From Candidatus Atribacteria bacterium (GTDB taxonomy: Bacteria; Atribacterota; JALVIU01), in contig JALVIU010000045.1 of assembly GCA_027028665.1 (NCBI GenBank), forward strand, positions 1 to 6,121: DNA of 6,121 nucleotides. Reading direction: 5' to 3'. The notes below the pieces were generated by a model that saw only the letters and a list, made by a program, of their open reading frames with translations, ran no database searches and was not told the DNA's origin. The position numbers and the translations under genes were made by a program. Below, piece by piece: positions 1 to 5,792 of the stretch; the first letter of the stretch is position 1; each line of letters starts with the position of its first letter.

Positions 1-488
1 GCAAAGATCCTGTTATTATTTTTGAACACAAGAGACTATATTCTATGAAGGGGCCTGTTCCTTATGAAGAGTACAGTATTCCTTTTGGAGAGGCAGATAT
101 AAAGAAAGAGGGAAAAGATCTTACAATTGTTGCCACATCAAGAATGGTACATGAAGCATTAAAAGTAGCAGAGGAGTTATCAAAAAGTGATGGAATAGAA
201 ATAGAGGTAATAGATTTAAGGACCCTTGTACCCTGGGATAAAGAAAAGGTAATAGCCTCTGTAAAGAAAACCAATAGATTGTTAGTAGCCCACGAAACCT
301 GGAGACGTGCAGGATGGGGGGCAGAAATAACAGCCATAGTCCAGGAAGAGGCCTTCGATTATCTTGATGCACCTATAGGAAGGGTAGGTGCAAAAAATGT
401 ACCAGATCCCTTCTCCCCTCCCCTTGAAGAGTTTGTAATTCCAGATAGGGAGGATATAAAAAATGAAGTCTATAAAGTACTAAAGTAG
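1..488 (+). CDS. 2-oxo acid (pyruvate/acetoin-type) dehydrogenase E1 component, beta subunit, C-terminal part
   Basis: The gene is cut by the left edge; the reading frame is open from base 3 and gives 161 residues, about half of the usual ~325. The first residues read DPVIIFEHKRLY followed by KGPVP, the conserved end of the pyrimidine-binding domain of E1 beta proteins. The rest is a transketolase C-terminal domain: LTIVATSRMVHEALKVAEEL, then IEVIDLRTLVPWD, then LLVAHE. The tail VPDPFSPPLE is also typical of the family. With E1 alpha, this subunit decarboxylates a 2-oxo acid (or cleaves acetoin) on thiamine diphosphate and passes the acyl group to lipoyl-E2 in the cytoplasm. E1 alpha is expected just upstream, outside the window. 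The 'EHK.LY' wording favours pyruvate/acetoin-type over branched-chain enzymes, which usually have a different residue before the Lys; this is a weak substrate call. The matching E2 gene lies at 3453, beyond three transporter genes. The Met at 45 is internal, not the start. Confidence 0.93.
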   Translation, partial: KDPVIIFEHKRLYSMKGPVPYEEYSIPFGEADIKKEGKDLTIVATSRMVHEALKVAEELSKSDGIEIEVIDLRTLVPWDKEKVIASVKKTNRLLVAHETWRRAGWGAEITAIVQEEAFDYLDAPIGRVGAKNVPDPFSPPLEEFVIPDREDIKNEVYKVLK

Positions 489-499
489 AAAGGAGGTGA
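489..499 (+). promoter_or_regulatory. Orphan perfect Shine-Dalgarno sequence
   Basis: AAAGGAGGTGA begins immediately after the E1 beta TAG stop and matches the complement of the conserved 16S rRNA 3' end over its full length. No ATG, GTG or TTG lies at a usable distance downstream. The next gene, dctP at 549, has its own site (AGAAGGAGG at 535-543, 5-base spacer). The sequence is certain; its role as a relic or a ribosome standby site is speculation. Confidence 0.5.
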
Positions 500-548
500 A
501 ATATCTTTTAGTTTTATTATTTAAAAAATTAAAAAGAAGGAGGAAAAA

Positions 549-1610
549 ATGTTAAAAAAAATTTTAGTTTTAGGCATAGTTTTAAGCCTTATTTTAACAA
601 CTCTTGCATTTGCTGGCTATAAAAGTGAGTACAAACTCTCATTAGTTGTGGGTCCAAGCTCTCCATGGGGTATAGCAGGGCAAAAATTTGCAGAGCTAAT
701 AAAGGAGCGCACCGAAGGAAGGATCAATATAAAGGTATATTTTGGTGGACAGCTATTTGCAGGAAAGCAGACAAACGAATTTCTTTTGCTTCGTAAAGGG
801 GTAGCAGATTTTGCTATAGGTTCCACTATTAATTGGTCTTCTCAAATTAAAGAACTCAACCTATTCTCTATGCCATTTATGTTTAAAAATTTCAAAGAAT
901 TAGATGCTGTGACAGGTGGATTCCCAGGGGAAATGATAAAGAAAAAACTTAAAAAGCTGGGTGTCGTATCTATCGGGACCTGGGGGGAAAACGGTTTCCG
1001 TCAACTCACGAACAGCAAAAGACCTGTAAAGATCCCAAAAGATCTAAAAGATCTAAAGATAAGAGTAGTAGGAAGTCCTATATTCCTGGATACCTTTAAG
1101 GCACTTGGTGCAAATCCTCTCAATATGAATTGGGGAGATGCACAAACCGCATTTAGACAAGGGGTAGTAGATGGACAAGAAAACCCTATAAACATAGTAA
1201 TAATTCCCTACAAGATCTTCGAATTCCACAAATACATAACTATATGGAACTATGCCATAGATCCATTAATATTAGGAGTAAACAAGAGAATATGGAATGG
1301 ATTTTCTGAAAAGGACAAAAAAATCTTAGAGGAAACGGCAAAAGAAGTTATGGACTGGGAAAGAGCCATGGCACGAGTAGGGCTTGATAATGGAGAGGCC
1401 CTTGAATATCTAAATAAAATAGGACAAAAAGTAGAAATTAAAGAGCCATATAAATACTTAGAGGAACACGGCATGCAGGTTACATTCCTTACAGATGAAG
1501 AAAGAGCGCAATTTAAAAAAGCAACAAGAAAGGTATATGAAAAATGGAGAAAGAAGATTGGTGCAGATTTAGTATTTGCTGCAGAACAGGAGATAAGAAA
1601 GGCAAAATAA
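549..1610 (+). CDS. dctP: TRAP transporter solute-binding protein, DctP family
   Basis: This is the secreted or lipid-free periplasmic/extracytoplasmic receptor of a tripartite ATP-independent transporter. It captures a small organic acid and delivers it to DctQ-DctM. The 353-residue length is normal for the family. Residues 1-22 form a signal peptide (two Lys, a hydrophobic core, then AFA) with likely cleavage before Gly23. The family pattern follows: FAELIKERTEGRI (48-60) with YFGGQL soon after, FSMPFMF (106-112), GFRQLTN (149-155), and PKDLKDLKIRV (163-173). Arg172 is at the position that usually salt-bridges the ligand carboxylate. ALGANPLNMNW (185-195) and GVVDGQENP (205-213) complete the signature. 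The start is set by AGAAGGAGG with a 5-base spacer. It is the first transporter gene, 60 bases after E1 beta, and a hairpin follows its stop. The ligand cannot be read from sequence; the dehydrogenase neighbours suggest a 2-oxo acid or related carboxylate. DctP is used here as a family name, not as evidence of C4-dicarboxylate specificity. Confidence 0.95.
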   Translation: MLKKILVLGIVLSLILTTLAFAGYKSEYKLSLVVGPSSPWGIAGQKFAELIKERTEGRINIKVYFGGQLFAGKQTNEFLLLRKGVADFAIGSTINWSSQIKELNLFSMPFMFKNFKELDAVTGGFPGEMIKKKLKKLGVVSIGTWGENGFRQLTNSKRPVKIPKDLKDLKIRVVGSPIFLDTFKALGANPLNMNWGDAQTAFRQGVVDGQENPINIVIIPYKIFEFHKYITIWNYAIDPLILGVNKRIWNGFSEKDKKILEETAKEVMDWERAMARVGLDNGEALEYLNKIGQKVEIKEPYKYLEEHGMQVTFLTDEERAQFKKATRKVYEKWRKKIGADLVFAAEQEIRKAK

Positions 1611-1629
1611 TAAAATTTAACTTTTACTA

Positions 1630-1658
1630 AAAAGCCAGTGGGAGCCCCACTGGCTTTT
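1630..1658 (+). terminator. Rho-independent-type hairpin between dctP and dctQ, probably leaky
   Basis: A perfect 9-bp GC-rich stem (GCCAGTGGG at 1634-1642, CCCACTGGC at 1646-1654) closes a 3-base AGC loop. AAAA before the stem can pair with TTTT after it. The T tract is short and interrupted (TTTTATCTTTA). The dctQ SD starts only 6 bases after the T run, so dctQM either depends on readthrough or the hairpin acts mainly as a 3' stabiliser of dctP mRNA. Either way it would raise binding protein over membrane subunits. The flanking A run makes it roughly symmetrical, but no gene approaches from the other side. Confidence 0.85.
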
Positions 1659-1675
1659 ATCTTTAGGAGGTTGAA

Positions 1676-2143
1676 ATGAAACAAAAATTTTTAGACCATT
1701 TTGAGGAGGGTCTTGCAGGCATTATACTTCTGGTAATGGTCTCCATTGCATTTATAAATGTTATCACCCGTTATCTTGTCAAGTATTCCCTCTCATTTAC
1801 AGAAGAGATAGAGGTAAATCTATTTGTATGGATGGTACTTCTTGGTGCTGCTGCTGGATTTAAAAAAGGGGCACATCTGGGTGTAAACTTTGTAGTTAAT
1901 TTCTTCCCAGAAAGGGCAAGAAAAATCATTATAATTTTGGGGTACATACTATCTGCTTCTATCTTTATTATCCTTATATATTTGGGGATCAAAGAGGTAA
2001 TGGATGAGATATTGCTTGAGGCAACATCTGAATCCTTGGGAATTCCTGTATGGTGGTACACAATAGGAGTGCCCATAGGGAGCGGAATAGTGATATGGAG
2101 AATTATAAATAGGATTATGATAGAGCTAAAGGAGGAAAAATAA
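1676..2143 (+). CDS. dctQ: TRAP transporter small permease subunit, DctQ family
   Basis: This is the small integral-membrane subunit that pairs with DctM to form the membrane part of the TRAP transporter. Its 155 residues carry four hydrophobic segments, at about 12-33, 47-64, 83-106 and 126-148, the usual DctQ topology. Family marks are the acidic stretch TEEIEVN before segment 2, then FVWMVLLGAAAGFKKGAHLGV (segment 2 and the following loop), and LGIPVWW (121-127) before the last segment. The start follows AGGAGG (1665-1670) with a 5-base spacer, immediately downstream of the hairpin. Its last codons contain the SD for dctM, and only one base separates the two genes, so translation is probably coupled. 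Sequence conservation in this subunit is low in general, but fold, size and gene order (P-Q-M) make the call firm. Confidence 0.93.
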   Translation: MKQKFLDHFEEGLAGIILLVMVSIAFINVITRYLVKYSLSFTEEIEVNLFVWMVLLGAAAGFKKGAHLGVNFVVNFFPERARKIIIILGYILSASIFIILIYLGIKEVMDEILLEATSESLGIPVWWYTIGVPIGSGIVIWRIINRIMIELKEEK

Positions 2144-2144
2144 T

Positions 2145-3434
2145 ATGCTGCATAACCCTATCTTCTGGTTATTGGTATTCTTTTTTATCCCACTCCTGCT
2201 TCGTGTGCCCATTGCTGTATCATTAGGATTTGCCGCTATGATGGTTGTATGGATATGGAACCTTGGAATAGATGTAGTTTCTTACAATTTCTTTGCAGGT
2301 ATTGCCAAATTTCCTCTTACTGCTATACCCTTTTTTATCCTTGCAGGAGTCATTATGGAAAAGGCTAAGATAGCAGAGAAAATCATACGATTCATAGAAC
2401 TCGTAATAGGTCCGATAACAGGGGGGCTTGCTGTTGTTACAGTAGCAGTGGCTTTATTCTGGGGTGCAGTTTCTGGCTCTGGTCCAGCTACAGTAGCAGC
2501 ACTTGGTGTATTGCTTATTCCTGCTATGGTAAAAAATAGATATTCCCTACCCTTTGCAACAGGTGTGGTATCTGTAAGTAGTGGACTTGCTATTATTATA
2601 CCCCCAAGCATCGCATTTATTGTATATGGAGTAATAACAAATGCCTCTGTGGGAGCGTTATTTGCAGCAGGCATTATCCCTGGAATAATTGTAGGGGTTG
2701 CCCTTATGATAACAGTATATATAATATCACGAAAAAGAGGTTATAAGGGTGGTAAAAGAGGTACATTGAAGGAAATATGGAAGGCATTCCTTGATTCTTT
2801 TTGGGGCCTTCTTACCCCCCTTATCATTCTCGGAGGCATATATGGAGGGGTATTTACGCCTACCGAAGCAGCTGCGGTAGCAGTTTTCTATGGACTTTTT
2901 GTGGGAGTATTTATATATCGAACAATAAGCTGGGGTACACTGTATAAATTACTTGTAGAGTCAGCTATATCCACATCTGTAGTAATGATTGTTGTCACCT
3001 TTGCAGGGTTATTTTCATGGGCAGGTGCAACGATTGGACTCATCGATAAGGCATCTGAACTCATTGTATCTGTATCTAATAATCCATATGTAATTCTGAT
3101 AATGGTAAACATAATTCTTTTAATTGCTGGAATGCTTCTTGATGCTATATCTATTTTCTATGTATTTTTGCCTATATTTATGCCCATAATGGCAAAATAT
3201 CATTTTGATCCCGTATGGTTTGGAGTGCTCATGACTGTAAACCTTGCTATCGGACAGGTAACACCACCTATAGCCGTTAACCTTTATGTAGGTTCCAATA
3301 TATCAGGAGTCAGCCTTGAAGAGCTATCAAAGGAGGTAATTCCTCTTGTTATAGCAGCTATCGGTGCACTCCTTATAATAACATATTTCCCCATACTTAG
3401 TCTCTACCTACCAAAGATCTTCGGGATCTACTAA
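2145..3434 (+). CDS. dctM: TRAP transporter large permease subunit, DctM family
   Basis: This is the large membrane subunit that carries the solute across the membrane, in this family normally driven by a sodium gradient. The 429-residue length is standard, and the protein is hydrophobic almost throughout, consistent with about 12 membrane or hairpin segments. Conserved family blocks are all present: RVPIAVSLGFA (20-30), IPFFILAGVIME (61-72), GAVSGSGPATVAALG (107-121), IIPPSIAFIVYG (151-162), GGVFTPTEAAAVAVFYG (234-250), and QVTPPIAVNLYV (371-382) near the C-terminus. A basic cytoplasmic-type loop (RKRGYKGGKRG) lies near 196-206. The ATG follows the dctQ stop by one base, with AGGAGG at 2130-2135 inside dctQ giving a 9-base spacer. 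It is followed 18 bases later by the E2 gene, with no terminator between them, so transporter and E2 are very likely co-transcribed. It is complete, with no sign of frameshift. Confidence 0.97.
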   Translation: MLHNPIFWLLVFFFIPLLLRVPIAVSLGFAAMMVVWIWNLGIDVVSYNFFAGIAKFPLTAIPFFILAGVIMEKAKIAEKIIRFIELVIGPITGGLAVVTVAVALFWGAVSGSGPATVAALGVLLIPAMVKNRYSLPFATGVVSVSSGLAIIIPPSIAFIVYGVITNASVGALFAAGIIPGIIVGVALMITVYIISRKRGYKGGKRGTLKEIWKAFLDSFWGLLTPLIILGGIYGGVFTPTEAAAVAVFYGLFVGVFIYRTISWGTLYKLLVESAISTSVVMIVVTFAGLFSWAGATIGLIDKASELIVSVSNNPYVILIMVNIILLIAGMLLDAISIFYVFLPIFMPIMAKYHFDPVWFGVLMTVNLAIGQVTPPIAVNLYVGSNISGVSLEELSKEVIPLVIAAIGALLIITYFPILSLYLPKIFGIY

Positions 3435-3452
3435 CACTTTAGGAGGATTGAT

Positions 3453-4643
3453 ATGCTAAAAGAAATACTGATGCCCAAATTAGGGCTTACTATGACTGAA
3501 GGAACAATAACTACCTGGATAAAAAGGGAAGGCGATGAGGTAAAAAAGGGAGAACCTCTATTTGAGGTGATGACAGAAAAAATAAATATAGAAATTGAAT
3601 CACCTTATTCAGGTATACTAAAAGAGATCGTAATACCAGAAGGTGGTACCGCAAGGGTATCAGAACCTGTAGGGTATATGGAAGTAGAAGGTGTAACGAA
3701 AAAAGAAGAGATAGAATCAGAAAAAGAAAAGTCAAAGGAAGAAAATCCAGAGAAAAAAAATGAAAGAAAGGTGTCCGAAAAAATCGTTAAAAAGCCTGAG
3801 GATAGGATCAAAATATCTCCCCTGGCAAAGAGGCTTGCAGAGGAAAACAATATAGATATTACAAAAATAAAGGGAACAGGGCCAGATGGAAGGATTGTAA
3901 GAAATGATATCTTAAAGATTGTTGAAGAAATGAAGAGAAGAAAAAAATTAGAAACAAGACCCAAAGAAGAAAACATAGTGCCTATTACAGGTATTAGAAA
4001 AATTATTGCGGAAAAGATGAAGGAAAGCACTCAGCAAAAGCCATACTATTCAGAAAGCATGAAGGTAAGAGGAGAATCTTTAATTAAACTAAGAGAAGCT
4101 GTCCTCAAAAGAAGTAAGATAAAGGTATCTTATAATAATATAATTATATATATTGTTTCAAGGGTAATAAAAAAATTTCCTACGTTTAATGCTTTTGTAG
4201 ATGATGAAAATATATATCTAAAAGATGATGTGAATGTAGGATTTGCCCTTGCTACAGAAAAGGGACTTATGGTACCTGTAATCAAAAACGCAGACCAGAA
4301 AACCCTTGTAGAGATAGATAAAGAGGTAAATTCCCTTATTAAAAAAGCAAGAGAAGGAACTATAACTTTAAGAGAGTTAGAAGATGGGACATTTACTATA
4401 TCAAATTTAGGTATGTATGGCATAGACTACTTTGAAGCAATAATAAATCCTCCTCAGGTTGCTATCCTTGCTGTATCTGCTATCAAAAAAGTACCATTGG
4501 TAGAAGATGATAAAATAAAAATTGGTTCCATTTTCAATATAGCACTTACATCGGATCACCGTGCAGTAGATGGGGCAGAATCTGCCAGATTTCTCATTGC
4601 ACTTAAAGAAGCCCTGGAAAATCCATATGAAGTACTATTATAA
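3453..4643 (+). CDS. Dihydrolipoamide acyltransferase (E2) of a 2-oxo acid/acetoin dehydrogenase complex
   Basis: E2 is the core of the complex: its lipoyl arm takes the acyl group from E1 and the catalytic domain transfers it to CoA. Domains in order: one lipoyl domain (about 1-79, lipoylated Lys43 in VMTEKINIEIESP), a Lys/Glu-rich linker (80-118), an E3-binding peripheral-subunit domain (about 120-159, ISPLAKRLAEENNID then GTGPDGRIVRNDI), a short basic linker, and the acyltransferase domain (about 174-396). The catalytic motif SDHRAVDG has His369 and Asp373, and TISNLGMYG (315-323) is also present. Length (396) fits a single-lipoyl E2. The start is fixed by AGGAGG at 3441-3446 with a 6-base spacer. 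The 'EKI' wording around the lipoyl Lys, rather than the common 'TDKA', is as I recall seen in acetoin dehydrogenase E2 (AcoC), and PITGIRKIIAEKM also fits that group, so acetoin cleavage is a candidate alongside pyruvate. The E3-binding domain implies a partner E3, which is not in the window. Its E1 beta is at the left edge, separated by the transporter. Confidence 0.95.
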   Translation: MLKEILMPKLGLTMTEGTITTWIKREGDEVKKGEPLFEVMTEKINIEIESPYSGILKEIVIPEGGTARVSEPVGYMEVEGVTKKEEIESEKEKSKEENPEKKNERKVSEKIVKKPEDRIKISPLAKRLAEENNIDITKIKGTGPDGRIVRNDILKIVEEMKRRKKLETRPKEENIVPITGIRKIIAEKMKESTQQKPYYSESMKVRGESLIKLREAVLKRSKIKVSYNNIIIYIVSRVIKKFPTFNAFVDDENIYLKDDVNVGFALATEKGLMVPVIKNADQKTLVEIDKEVNSLIKKAREGTITLRELEDGTFTISNLGMYGIDYFEAIINPPQVAILAVSAIKKVPLVEDDKIKIGSIFNIALTSDHRAVDGAESARFLIALKEALENPYEVLL

Positions 4644-4694: not shown

Positions 4695-5792
4695 ATGTAT
4701 TTTAAGAAAGTCGCATATATCTTTATCATTGTATGTCTCCTGATTCCTCTCGTGGCCTTTGCAGAAGAAAATGAAAAGACATATGATCTAAAAAATGTAG
4801 AAAGGGAACTTTATAAATTTATAAGAATAAAGCTTACAAACAGTGAAGGAGGGGTCTATTCCAACTACTACACAGGGTATAAAATACATCCTGCAGATGG
4901 ACAAAATCATGAAATATTATCAGAATCTATAGGGCTTTATCTTAGATATCTCTATTTTGCCAAAGAAAAAAAAGAGTTTGAAAGAGAGGTAATATTTATA
5001 AAACGGCATCTCCTGACACCCTTTGGGTTATTGTCCTGGAAAATAAGAGAAGATGGAAAACGGGAAAATTCAAGTGCATCTATTGATGACCTAAGAATAA
5101 TAAGATATCTCCTCCTTGCAGGAGATGAATGGCATAAAAGAGAATACATTAAACTTGCACTCAAAATAGCAGAAGGGATAAGAAAGTACTGTATAGAAGA
5201 TAACGTATTGGTAGATGGTGCATCATGGGATAAGTCATTAAATGAAGAAAGCATCTCTAAGAATCTAAATATCGGGATAGTACTTTCTTATGCAGATCTA
5301 TATACAATAAAACTGTTAGAAAAATTTGATAAAAAAAATGCAAAGACCTGGAGAAATTTACTTGATAATATGCTTATAGTGCTATTCCATGGATATAAAG
5401 ATTACTACTTTTTAAAAAGGTACAATATACGAAAAAAATTCTACATCAAAAAAAAGGCAAATCCGATAATTAATATATACACAATATTACATCTTACTGA
5501 AGTAGGGTTTTCCCCTATAAAGGCACTTACTCCTCAAGGCATAGAAAAAAACAAAGATGATAGTGTGGCATATTATGCACTTCTTACACTTGTATATATA
5601 AATATGGAAAATAGCGTCTCTGCTGAAGAATCTGTGAAAAAATTATTCGATTATTATATAACAAAAGGTCCTTTAAAAGGTTGTTTTGGGTATTATTTAA
5701 ATAGGAAAAAAAGATATAGAATATATGCATATGATAATTTGTTGGCACTTTCAGCACTACGAGAATATCAAATCTTTGTAAAGGAAAGGTGA
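4695..5792 (+). CDS. Secreted glycoside hydrolase family 8-like (endoglucanase/BcsZ-type) protein
   Basis: This is probably an exported polysaccharide-cleaving enzyme with the helical (alpha/alpha)6 fold. Residues 1-23 form a signal peptide (Lys4-Lys5, hydrophobic core, VAFA then Glu24). The GH8-like order can be traced by eye. HEILSESIGLYLRYL (72-86) matches the family's SEG-Y block, putting Glu77 at the general-acid position, though the usual Gly after it is Ser. FGLLSWKI (110-117) follows. SSASIDDLRIIRYLLLAGDEW (126-146) matches the 'ATDADLDIAYALLLA..W' block, with Asp131/Asp132 as candidate active-site acids. RIYAYDNLLALSAL (342-355) resembles the C-terminal block. At 365 residues it is of GH8 size. 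The start follows AGGGGG with a 7-base spacer. Similarity is clearly divergent, so it could be a non-cellulosic or inactive relative. It has a candidate promoter of its own and no strong terminator before it. The next gene follows directly, suggesting a separate surface-polysaccharide unit. Confidence 0.65.
   Translation: MYFKKVAYIFIIVCLLIPLVAFAEENEKTYDLKNVERELYKFIRIKLTNSEGGVYSNYYTGYKIHPADGQNHEILSESIGLYLRYLYFAKEKKEFEREVIFIKRHLLTPFGLLSWKIREDGKRENSSASIDDLRIIRYLLLAGDEWHKREYIKLALKIAEGIRKYCIEDNVLVDGASWDKSLNEESISKNLNIGIVLSYADLYTIKLLEKFDKKNAKTWRNLLDNMLIVLFHGYKDYYFLKRYNIRKKFYIKKKANPIINIYTILHLTEVGFSPIKALTPQGIEKNKDDSVAYYALLTLVYINMENSVSAEESVKKLFDYYITKGPLKGCFGYYLNRKKRYRIYAYDNLLALSALREYQIFVKER

Follow-up and report, generated by a model that had tools for sequence, protein, structure and literature searches.

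A TRAP transporter gene set kept beside one branch of thiamine diphosphate-dependent E1 genes across bacteria and archaea

Published receptors of tripartite ATP-independent periplasmic (TRAP) transporters hold the acid group of their ligand with two arginines and an asparagine (PMC11668362; PMC4646407). Here, we describe a stretch of 6,121 nucleotides from a Candidatus Atribacteria bacterium (contig JALVIU010000045.1; hereafter the window) in which a complete set of TRAP genes, dctP, dctQ, and dctM, lies between the E1 beta and E2 genes of a 2-oxo acid or acetoin-type dehydrogenase. It spans an entire contig (G000:C45) of an incomplete genome. Comparison of gene neighborhoods shows one TRAP receptor family, with its permeases, kept beside one branch of predicted thiamine diphosphate (ThDP)-dependent E1 genes, usually together with a lipoyl E2.

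Four described systems come closest to this module. Like the DctP-type transporter that includes receptor H16_A1328 (4P8B), it has full P, Q, and M components, and its receptor matches 4P8B over the whole length; unlike that transporter, its genes sit inside a dehydrogenase operon. It resembles acetoin dehydrogenase (Aco) in its separate E1 alpha and E1 beta subunits of about 325 residues and its lipoyl E2, with E3 and sigma-54 activator genes in several loci. The module differs from Aco in its built-in TRAP transporter, whereas acetoin itself is uncharged, and in the E2 of the window, which reaches 91 bits against a cut-off of 307 for the NCBIfam acetoin E2 model; moreover, neither an acetoin reductase nor a butanediol dehydrogenase turned up. 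The pyruvate dehydrogenase (PDH) complex shares the E1 alpha/beta, E2, and E3 architecture and supplies the best library models, but it differs in its E1 alpha, as described below, and the module's E1 alpha is held beside a transporter. Lastly, acetolactate decarboxylase (AlsD) is encoded next to the receptor in Orenia, and the PCC (PCC/DUF296) proteins of some operons have a predicted fold related to that of AlsD, while any enzyme role of PCC proteins is putative.

We reproduced the gene order and spacing of the original prediction from the table of open reading frames (ORFs), with all five genes on the forward strand and gaps of exactly 60, 65, 1, and 18 bases. Scanned with the receptor alignment, about 85,000 species genomes gave 301 relatives, of which 80 were kept; for related genomes, the phylum labels Synergistota and Halanaerobia-like were assigned from the central genome of each group. 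The order E1 beta-dctP-dctQ-dctM-E2 proved to be conserved: it occurs exactly at 15 loci, including the window and 14 others from genomes related to the Synergistetes centre and Orenia, which rules out an order unique to this genome. Several of these loci carry a PCC gene between E1 beta and dctP and an E3 gene after E2, and E3 is found next to E2 in Synergistota loci. Genomes of the same phylum as the window have receptors 45-48% identical to its own and the order E1 alpha-E1 beta-E2-dctP-dctQ-dctM. In some order (E1-E2-PQM, PQM-E1-E2, or E1-PQM), the linkage extends across about ten phyla of bacteria and archaea, and TRAP genes adjoin E1, E2, or both in WOR-3, Caldisericum, Spirochaetes, one Desulfobacteraceae, and Thermococcus. 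The order E1 alpha-E1 beta-P-Q-M is found in one Synergistetes genome and on an Azospirillum plasmid, and Thermus thermophilus plasmids carry E1 alpha-E1 beta-lipoyl-P-Q-M.

Among the 86 distinct loci of this DctP family that were informative, 42 have E1 genes nearby, vs none of 22 loci of other TRAP receptors in Atribacterota (Fisher p of about 4e-6, from sampling that is not independent of phylogeny). Receptors with and without the linkage are intermingled on the DctP tree, where the E1 label changes at least 14 times when only starred branches are counted, so the linkage is not one frozen inheritance. The DctP of the window stands apart from the receptors of its own phylum and loosely with WOR-3, archaeal, and Thermus receptors, which suggests gene transfer. 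Among unlinked members of the family (Desulfacinum, Syntrophorhabdus, Desulfonema, and others), the neighbors share no common enzyme. Together, these findings strongly support the view, proposed from the window alone, that one operon couples uptake to oxidation, since the linkage outlives reshuffled gene orders in about ten phyla; judged from gene neighborhoods, such coupling is very probable, and the arrangement is real and conserved and in all likelihood functional.

Several variants of the arrangement stand beside the common form (coordinates are given in the table). In the Thermococcus and Thermus versions (L055, L063, L206, and L213), a lipoyl protein of 78-84 residues adjoins the TRAP and E1 genes, and an E2 catalytic domain is absent within the stretch seen. 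A Desulfurococcales archaeon (L052) encodes an E1 alpha-E1 beta fusion, an ORF of 668 residues, together with E2 on the strand opposite dctPQM. WOR-3 loci (L050, L051, L057, and L087) have a glyoxalase-superfamily gene between E2 and dctP, and in two Spirochaetes loci (L095 and L108) a second, convergent E1 alpha-E1 beta-E2 set adjoins the TRAP-linked one. A distant receptor branch (36-38% identical; L214, L215, and L216), found on plasmids of the Roseobacter group and Skermanella, has acyl-CoA synthetase and thiolase genes as neighbors, and its Roseobacter-group members also carry, adjoining dctM, a short-chain dehydrogenase/reductase (SDR) oxidoreductase gene, along with an IclR regulator; these contexts hint at 3-hydroxy or 3-oxo acids.

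The E1 beta gene of the window is cut off by the contig end, and the missing part of E1 is probably supplied by another contig of the genome, C287. This contig ends with an E1 alpha gene followed by the start of an E1 beta gene that runs to the contig end, and we infer that C287 joins C45 and contributes E1 alpha and the E1 beta N terminus, with about 120 E1 beta residues falling in the gap. Only one other full-length E1 alpha/beta pair is found in the genome, on C233, without an E2 on that contig. The genes upstream of E1 alpha on C287, named by ORF reading, are ilvB, ilvH, ilvC, and a GlcD-type oxidase gene, then the divergent genes taken up below with the sugar-acid reading.

In the E1 alpha tree, TRAP-linked E1 alphas fall on one branch (support 98/92) together with a single odd row, L189. 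A one-clade test of the TRAP-linked E1 alphas, with L189 counted outside, was rejected (p 1.8e-5); because this TRAP also lies some 5 kb downstream in L189, we blame its label rather than the tree for the rejection, although the test as run kept L189 outside. The E1 alpha assigned to the operon of the window groups with Thermococcus and with G113/G105, which have the gene order of the window. A small set that includes an annotated Acinetobacter acetoin operon lies near this branch with weak support (89/61 for the set and 87/29 for the join), whereas the E1 alphas of Enterococcus PDH and of rhizobial branched-chain complexes are far from it. Consistent with this, the E1 alpha of a relative is 40-54% identical to acetoin/PDH-type proteins vs 27-31% to annotated 3-methyl-2-oxobutanoate dehydrogenases. 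A branched-chain 2-oxo acid complex was rejected on these identities and the distant tree position. Of the ligands that had been suggested, the branched-chain 2-oxo acid is therefore disfavored and pyruvate is quite possible.

The predicted structure of the receptor (pLDDT 95) is closest to 4P8B, the H16_A1328 receptor of Ralstonia eutropha/Cupriavidus necator, both by sequence match (E 8e-101) and by fold (Z 48.1 at 53% identity over 313 residues, with the next structure at Z 38.9). Residues R172, R151, N212, W40, N95, E147, W233, Y235, and D238 do not vary among 38 relatives. The Arg172 carboxylate site expected from the original prediction is thus present with its partners R151 and N212, and a carboxylate ligand is likely, given that these three residues are kept and have that role in published receptors.

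We conclude that the module probably takes up an organic acid for conversion to acetyl-CoA, and we tentatively propose, from gene content and protein families, that this could be an acyloin acid resembling 2-acetolactate (a 2-hydroxy-2-alkyl-3-oxo acid), which E1/E2 would oxidize. DctP would bind the carboxylate via R172, R151, and N212, and DctQM would bring it in with an ion gradient. The acid would then lose CO2 to give acetoin or a like acyloin, through a decarboxylase (PCC-type or AlsD) in carriers that have one and, in the others, spontaneously or in E1. E1 would cleave the acyloin on ThDP, E2 would transfer the acetyl group to CoA, and E3 would reoxidize the lipoamide, with acetyl-CoA, an aldehyde, and NADH as products. 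Since acetolactate carries a carboxylate group and yields acetoin when decarboxylated, this scheme would explain why a carboxylate transporter sits beside an acetoin-type complex. It had been remarked in passing that an acetoin-type complex would make the pairing with TRAP receptors puzzling; this remark turned out to be the better lead, and the puzzle vanishes if the acid is 2-acetolactate or alike.

An acetolactate-type acid is favored because AlsD adjoins the receptor in Orenia and because PCC proteins with a predicted AlsD-like fold and motif are encoded in the operons of three other phyla. In two Orenia-group genomes (L086 and L174), an AlsD gene (293 bits) lies directly 5' of the receptor gene, and this AlsD-linked receptor pair sits within a part of the DctP tree that is rich in E1-linked receptors. 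PCC genes occur in the operon at three different positions in Synergistota, Caldisericum, and a Desulfobacteraceae. A predicted PCC model matches PCC structures first and then nine acetolactate decarboxylase entries (Z 7.3-9.1), below which the search drops to Z 4.5 and then under 4, and PCC and AlsD share the HxH-x(10-11)-GH pattern of zinc-binding histidines.

On the other hand, several observations weigh against an acetolactate-type acid. In L086, a dCache chemoreceptor gene follows the receptor gene and no permeases accompany the receptor; since the AlsD of Orenia also bears a signal peptide, as judged by eye, and is thus secreted, the Orenia link is indirect. AlsD is not found in the window's genome, which is about 90% complete, and 29 of the 30 genomes that were searched by way of these loci lack it, Orenia being the sole exception. 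Sequence profiles of PCC and AlsD gave no significant match (hhalign E 0.2), with only the HxH...GH stretch and what follows it aligned. The only PCC gene of the window's genome (L230, on G000:C186) adjoins a different TRAP receptor gene, so a linkage of PCC and TRAP may be wider than this module. Moreover, solved PCC proteins are titled putative DNA-binding, and neither an AlsD nor a PCC gene is in the window. Certain regulators and neighboring genes, considered with the alternatives below, also count against it.

The Orenia locus itself can be read in another way. The 618-residue protein encoded after the receptor was considered as a fused DctQM and ruled out, since its Pfam match is a chemoreceptor. 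The L086 receptor probably serves taxis, and AlsD, receptor, and chemoreceptor would form a chemotaxis unit that uses a TRAP-type receptor.

A quite possible alternative is that the module imports pyruvate, another short straight-chain 2-oxo acid, or lactate that is oxidized to it, and that the complex is a pyruvate dehydrogenase. The E1 alpha of the operon, at 368.5 bits, is near the PDH equivalog cut-off of 393.85 (TIGR03182), and E1 beta relatives pass the cut-off of the PDH E1 beta subfamily; the operon's E1 alpha is nevertheless below the cut-off, while the other E1 alpha of the genome exceeds it (412.5), and this cut-off is no clean divider of PDH from other E1 alphas, as the E1 alpha of a sorbitol locus passes it. 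Synergistota loci have GntR/FCD regulators, which belong to a type known to govern genes for pyruvate and lactate as well, and phosphotransacetylase (Pta) and acetate kinase genes lie near a Desulfovibrio receptor. The GlcD-type oxidase of C287, an FAD oxidase, and an Etf-like open-ended reading frame on the same contig, both named by ORF reading, would also fit the import of lactate or pyruvate. Against this, pyruvate:ferredoxin-type genes (POR_N) are present in 12 of 12 genomes checked, which leaves less need for another way to use plain pyruvate, and this reading gives PCC and AlsD no obvious role.

It is rather improbable that the imported acid is instead a sugar acid or another hydroxy-keto acid and that E1/E2 cleaves a sugar-derived acyloin. 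Relatives of this E1 that lack TRAP adjoin sugar transporters, sugar kinases, and sugar-type regulators, but these contexts are without this TRAP and outside the TRAP-linked E1 branch. One TRAP-E1 operon on a Thermus plasmid has a regulator with a sugar-binding domain. On C287, the E1 alpha gene of the window's operon is divergent from genes for IclR, 2-keto-3-deoxy-6-phosphogluconate (KDPG) aldolase, and 2-keto-3-deoxygluconate (KDG) kinase, again named by ORF reading; yet in none of the other loci compared did kdgK or a KDPG aldolase gene neighbor E1.

A chance insertion of functionally unrelated transporter genes between E1 beta and E2 is hardly credible, for although 42 of the 86 informative loci, plus two with AlsD, have no same-strand E1 nearby, the pairing recurs in about ten phyla and several orders vs none for other TRAP receptors, its E1 partners form one branch, and the shuffled orders contradict transfer of one fixed cassette as the cause of all loci.

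Each gene assignment in the operon of the window is borne out by Pfam and NCBIfam. The E1 beta fragment matches Pfam Transketolase_C (1.7e-41) and the NCBIfam E1 beta subfamily (2.9e-50) and is 72% identical to a Synergistetes E1 beta from an operon of the same type. DctP and DctM exceed the cut-offs in both Pfam and NCBIfam and DctQ does so in Pfam, giving a complete set of adjacent receptor and permease genes. The E2 matches 2-oxoacid_dh (5.2e-79), Biotin_lipoyl (1.1e-17), and E3_binding (8.8e-16) and has the active-site motif HxxxDG as HRAVDG at residue 369. No E3 dihydrolipoyl dehydrogenase gene is in the window, the rest of the genome not having been searched for E3. Further downstream, 51 bases 3' of E2, a secreted protein resembles glycosyl hydrolase family 8 (GH8) by sequence and matches the structures 3ren (E 2.4e-17) and 6r2m; its function is probably separate from that of the TRAP/E1/E2 module.

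Table. Positions of the features in the window and in the other contigs and loci named in the text
Feature	Contig or locus	Position	Strand	Evidence or remark
E1 beta subunit, 2-oxo acid/acetoin-type dehydrogenase, C-terminal 161 residues	window	3..488	+	5' end open at contig end
dctP, TRAP periplasmic receptor, signal peptide	window	549..1610	+	Pfam DctP 1.3e-68
dctP-dctQ intergenic stem-loop, then dctQ Shine-Dalgarno	window	1611..1675	+	RNA fold
dctQ, TRAP small permease subunit	window	1676..2143	+	Pfam DctQ 6.2e-30
dctM, TRAP large permease subunit	window	2145..3434	+	Pfam DctM 4.1e-107; TIGR00786 404.6 bits, over cut-off
E2 dihydrolipoyl acyltransferase: lipoyl, E3-binding, catalytic domains	window	3453..4643	+	Pfam
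GH8-like secreted protein	window	4695-5792		no Pfam match
Membrane protein gene	window	5789 to contig end		
ilvB, ilvH, ilvC, GlcD-type oxidase gene, then divergent IclR, KDPG aldolase, and KDG kinase genes	C287 (L135)	440-7785		
E1 alpha	C287	8179-9159		
AlsD-receptor-chemoreceptor genes, Orenia group	L086	9047-12948		
PCC gene	G000:C186 (L230)	5763-6209		
PCC gene	L181	7935-8438		
Lipoyl protein with TRAP and E1	L055	430-5583		
Lipoyl protein with TRAP and E1	L063	8141-9567		
E1 alpha-E1 beta fusion, 668-residue ORF	L052	4785-6791	-	
Second E1 alpha-E1 beta-E2 set	L095	8587-11741		
Second E1 alpha-E1 beta-E2 set	L108	11376-14431		

The GC-rich stem-loop between dctP and dctQ has a stem of about 12 pairs and a folding energy of -26.4 kcal/mol (z -4.9). 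Strong stem-loops of unrelated sequence occupy the corresponding position in three other loci, two from Atribacterota and one from WOR-3 (L106, L126, and L050), and none was found between dctP and dctQ of L181 (z -0.9). The stem-loop may lower the expression of the permease relative to the receptor. With respect to regulators, sigma-54 activator genes are found in the Atribacterota, Caldisericum, and G113/G105 loci, and in Atribacterota they precede E1 together with lipoate ligase genes.

Our literature search found no paper naming both a TRAP transporter and acetoin dehydrogenase, and the module appears to be undescribed in the literature searched. It ties together a receptor family and an E1 branch of unproven substrate, such that knowing one ligand would annotate both in about ten phyla, and many of the carriers are uncultured (Atribacterota, WOR-3, and Caldisericota). 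In its widest form, the proposal would be a widespread undescribed pathway of TRAP uptake and oxidation of 2-acetolactate or a like 2-hydroxy-3-oxo acid, in which PCC/DUF296 proteins are a second family of acetolactate decarboxylases or direct cleavage of the acid by E1 yields acetyl-CoA and pyruvate in a reversal of acetolactate synthase chemistry; we regard this form as unlikely. Should the acid prove to be acetolactate, a compound familiar as a metabolic intermediate and overflow product would come to be recognized as a nutrient, and an enzymatic role for PCC/DUF296 proteins would become testable.

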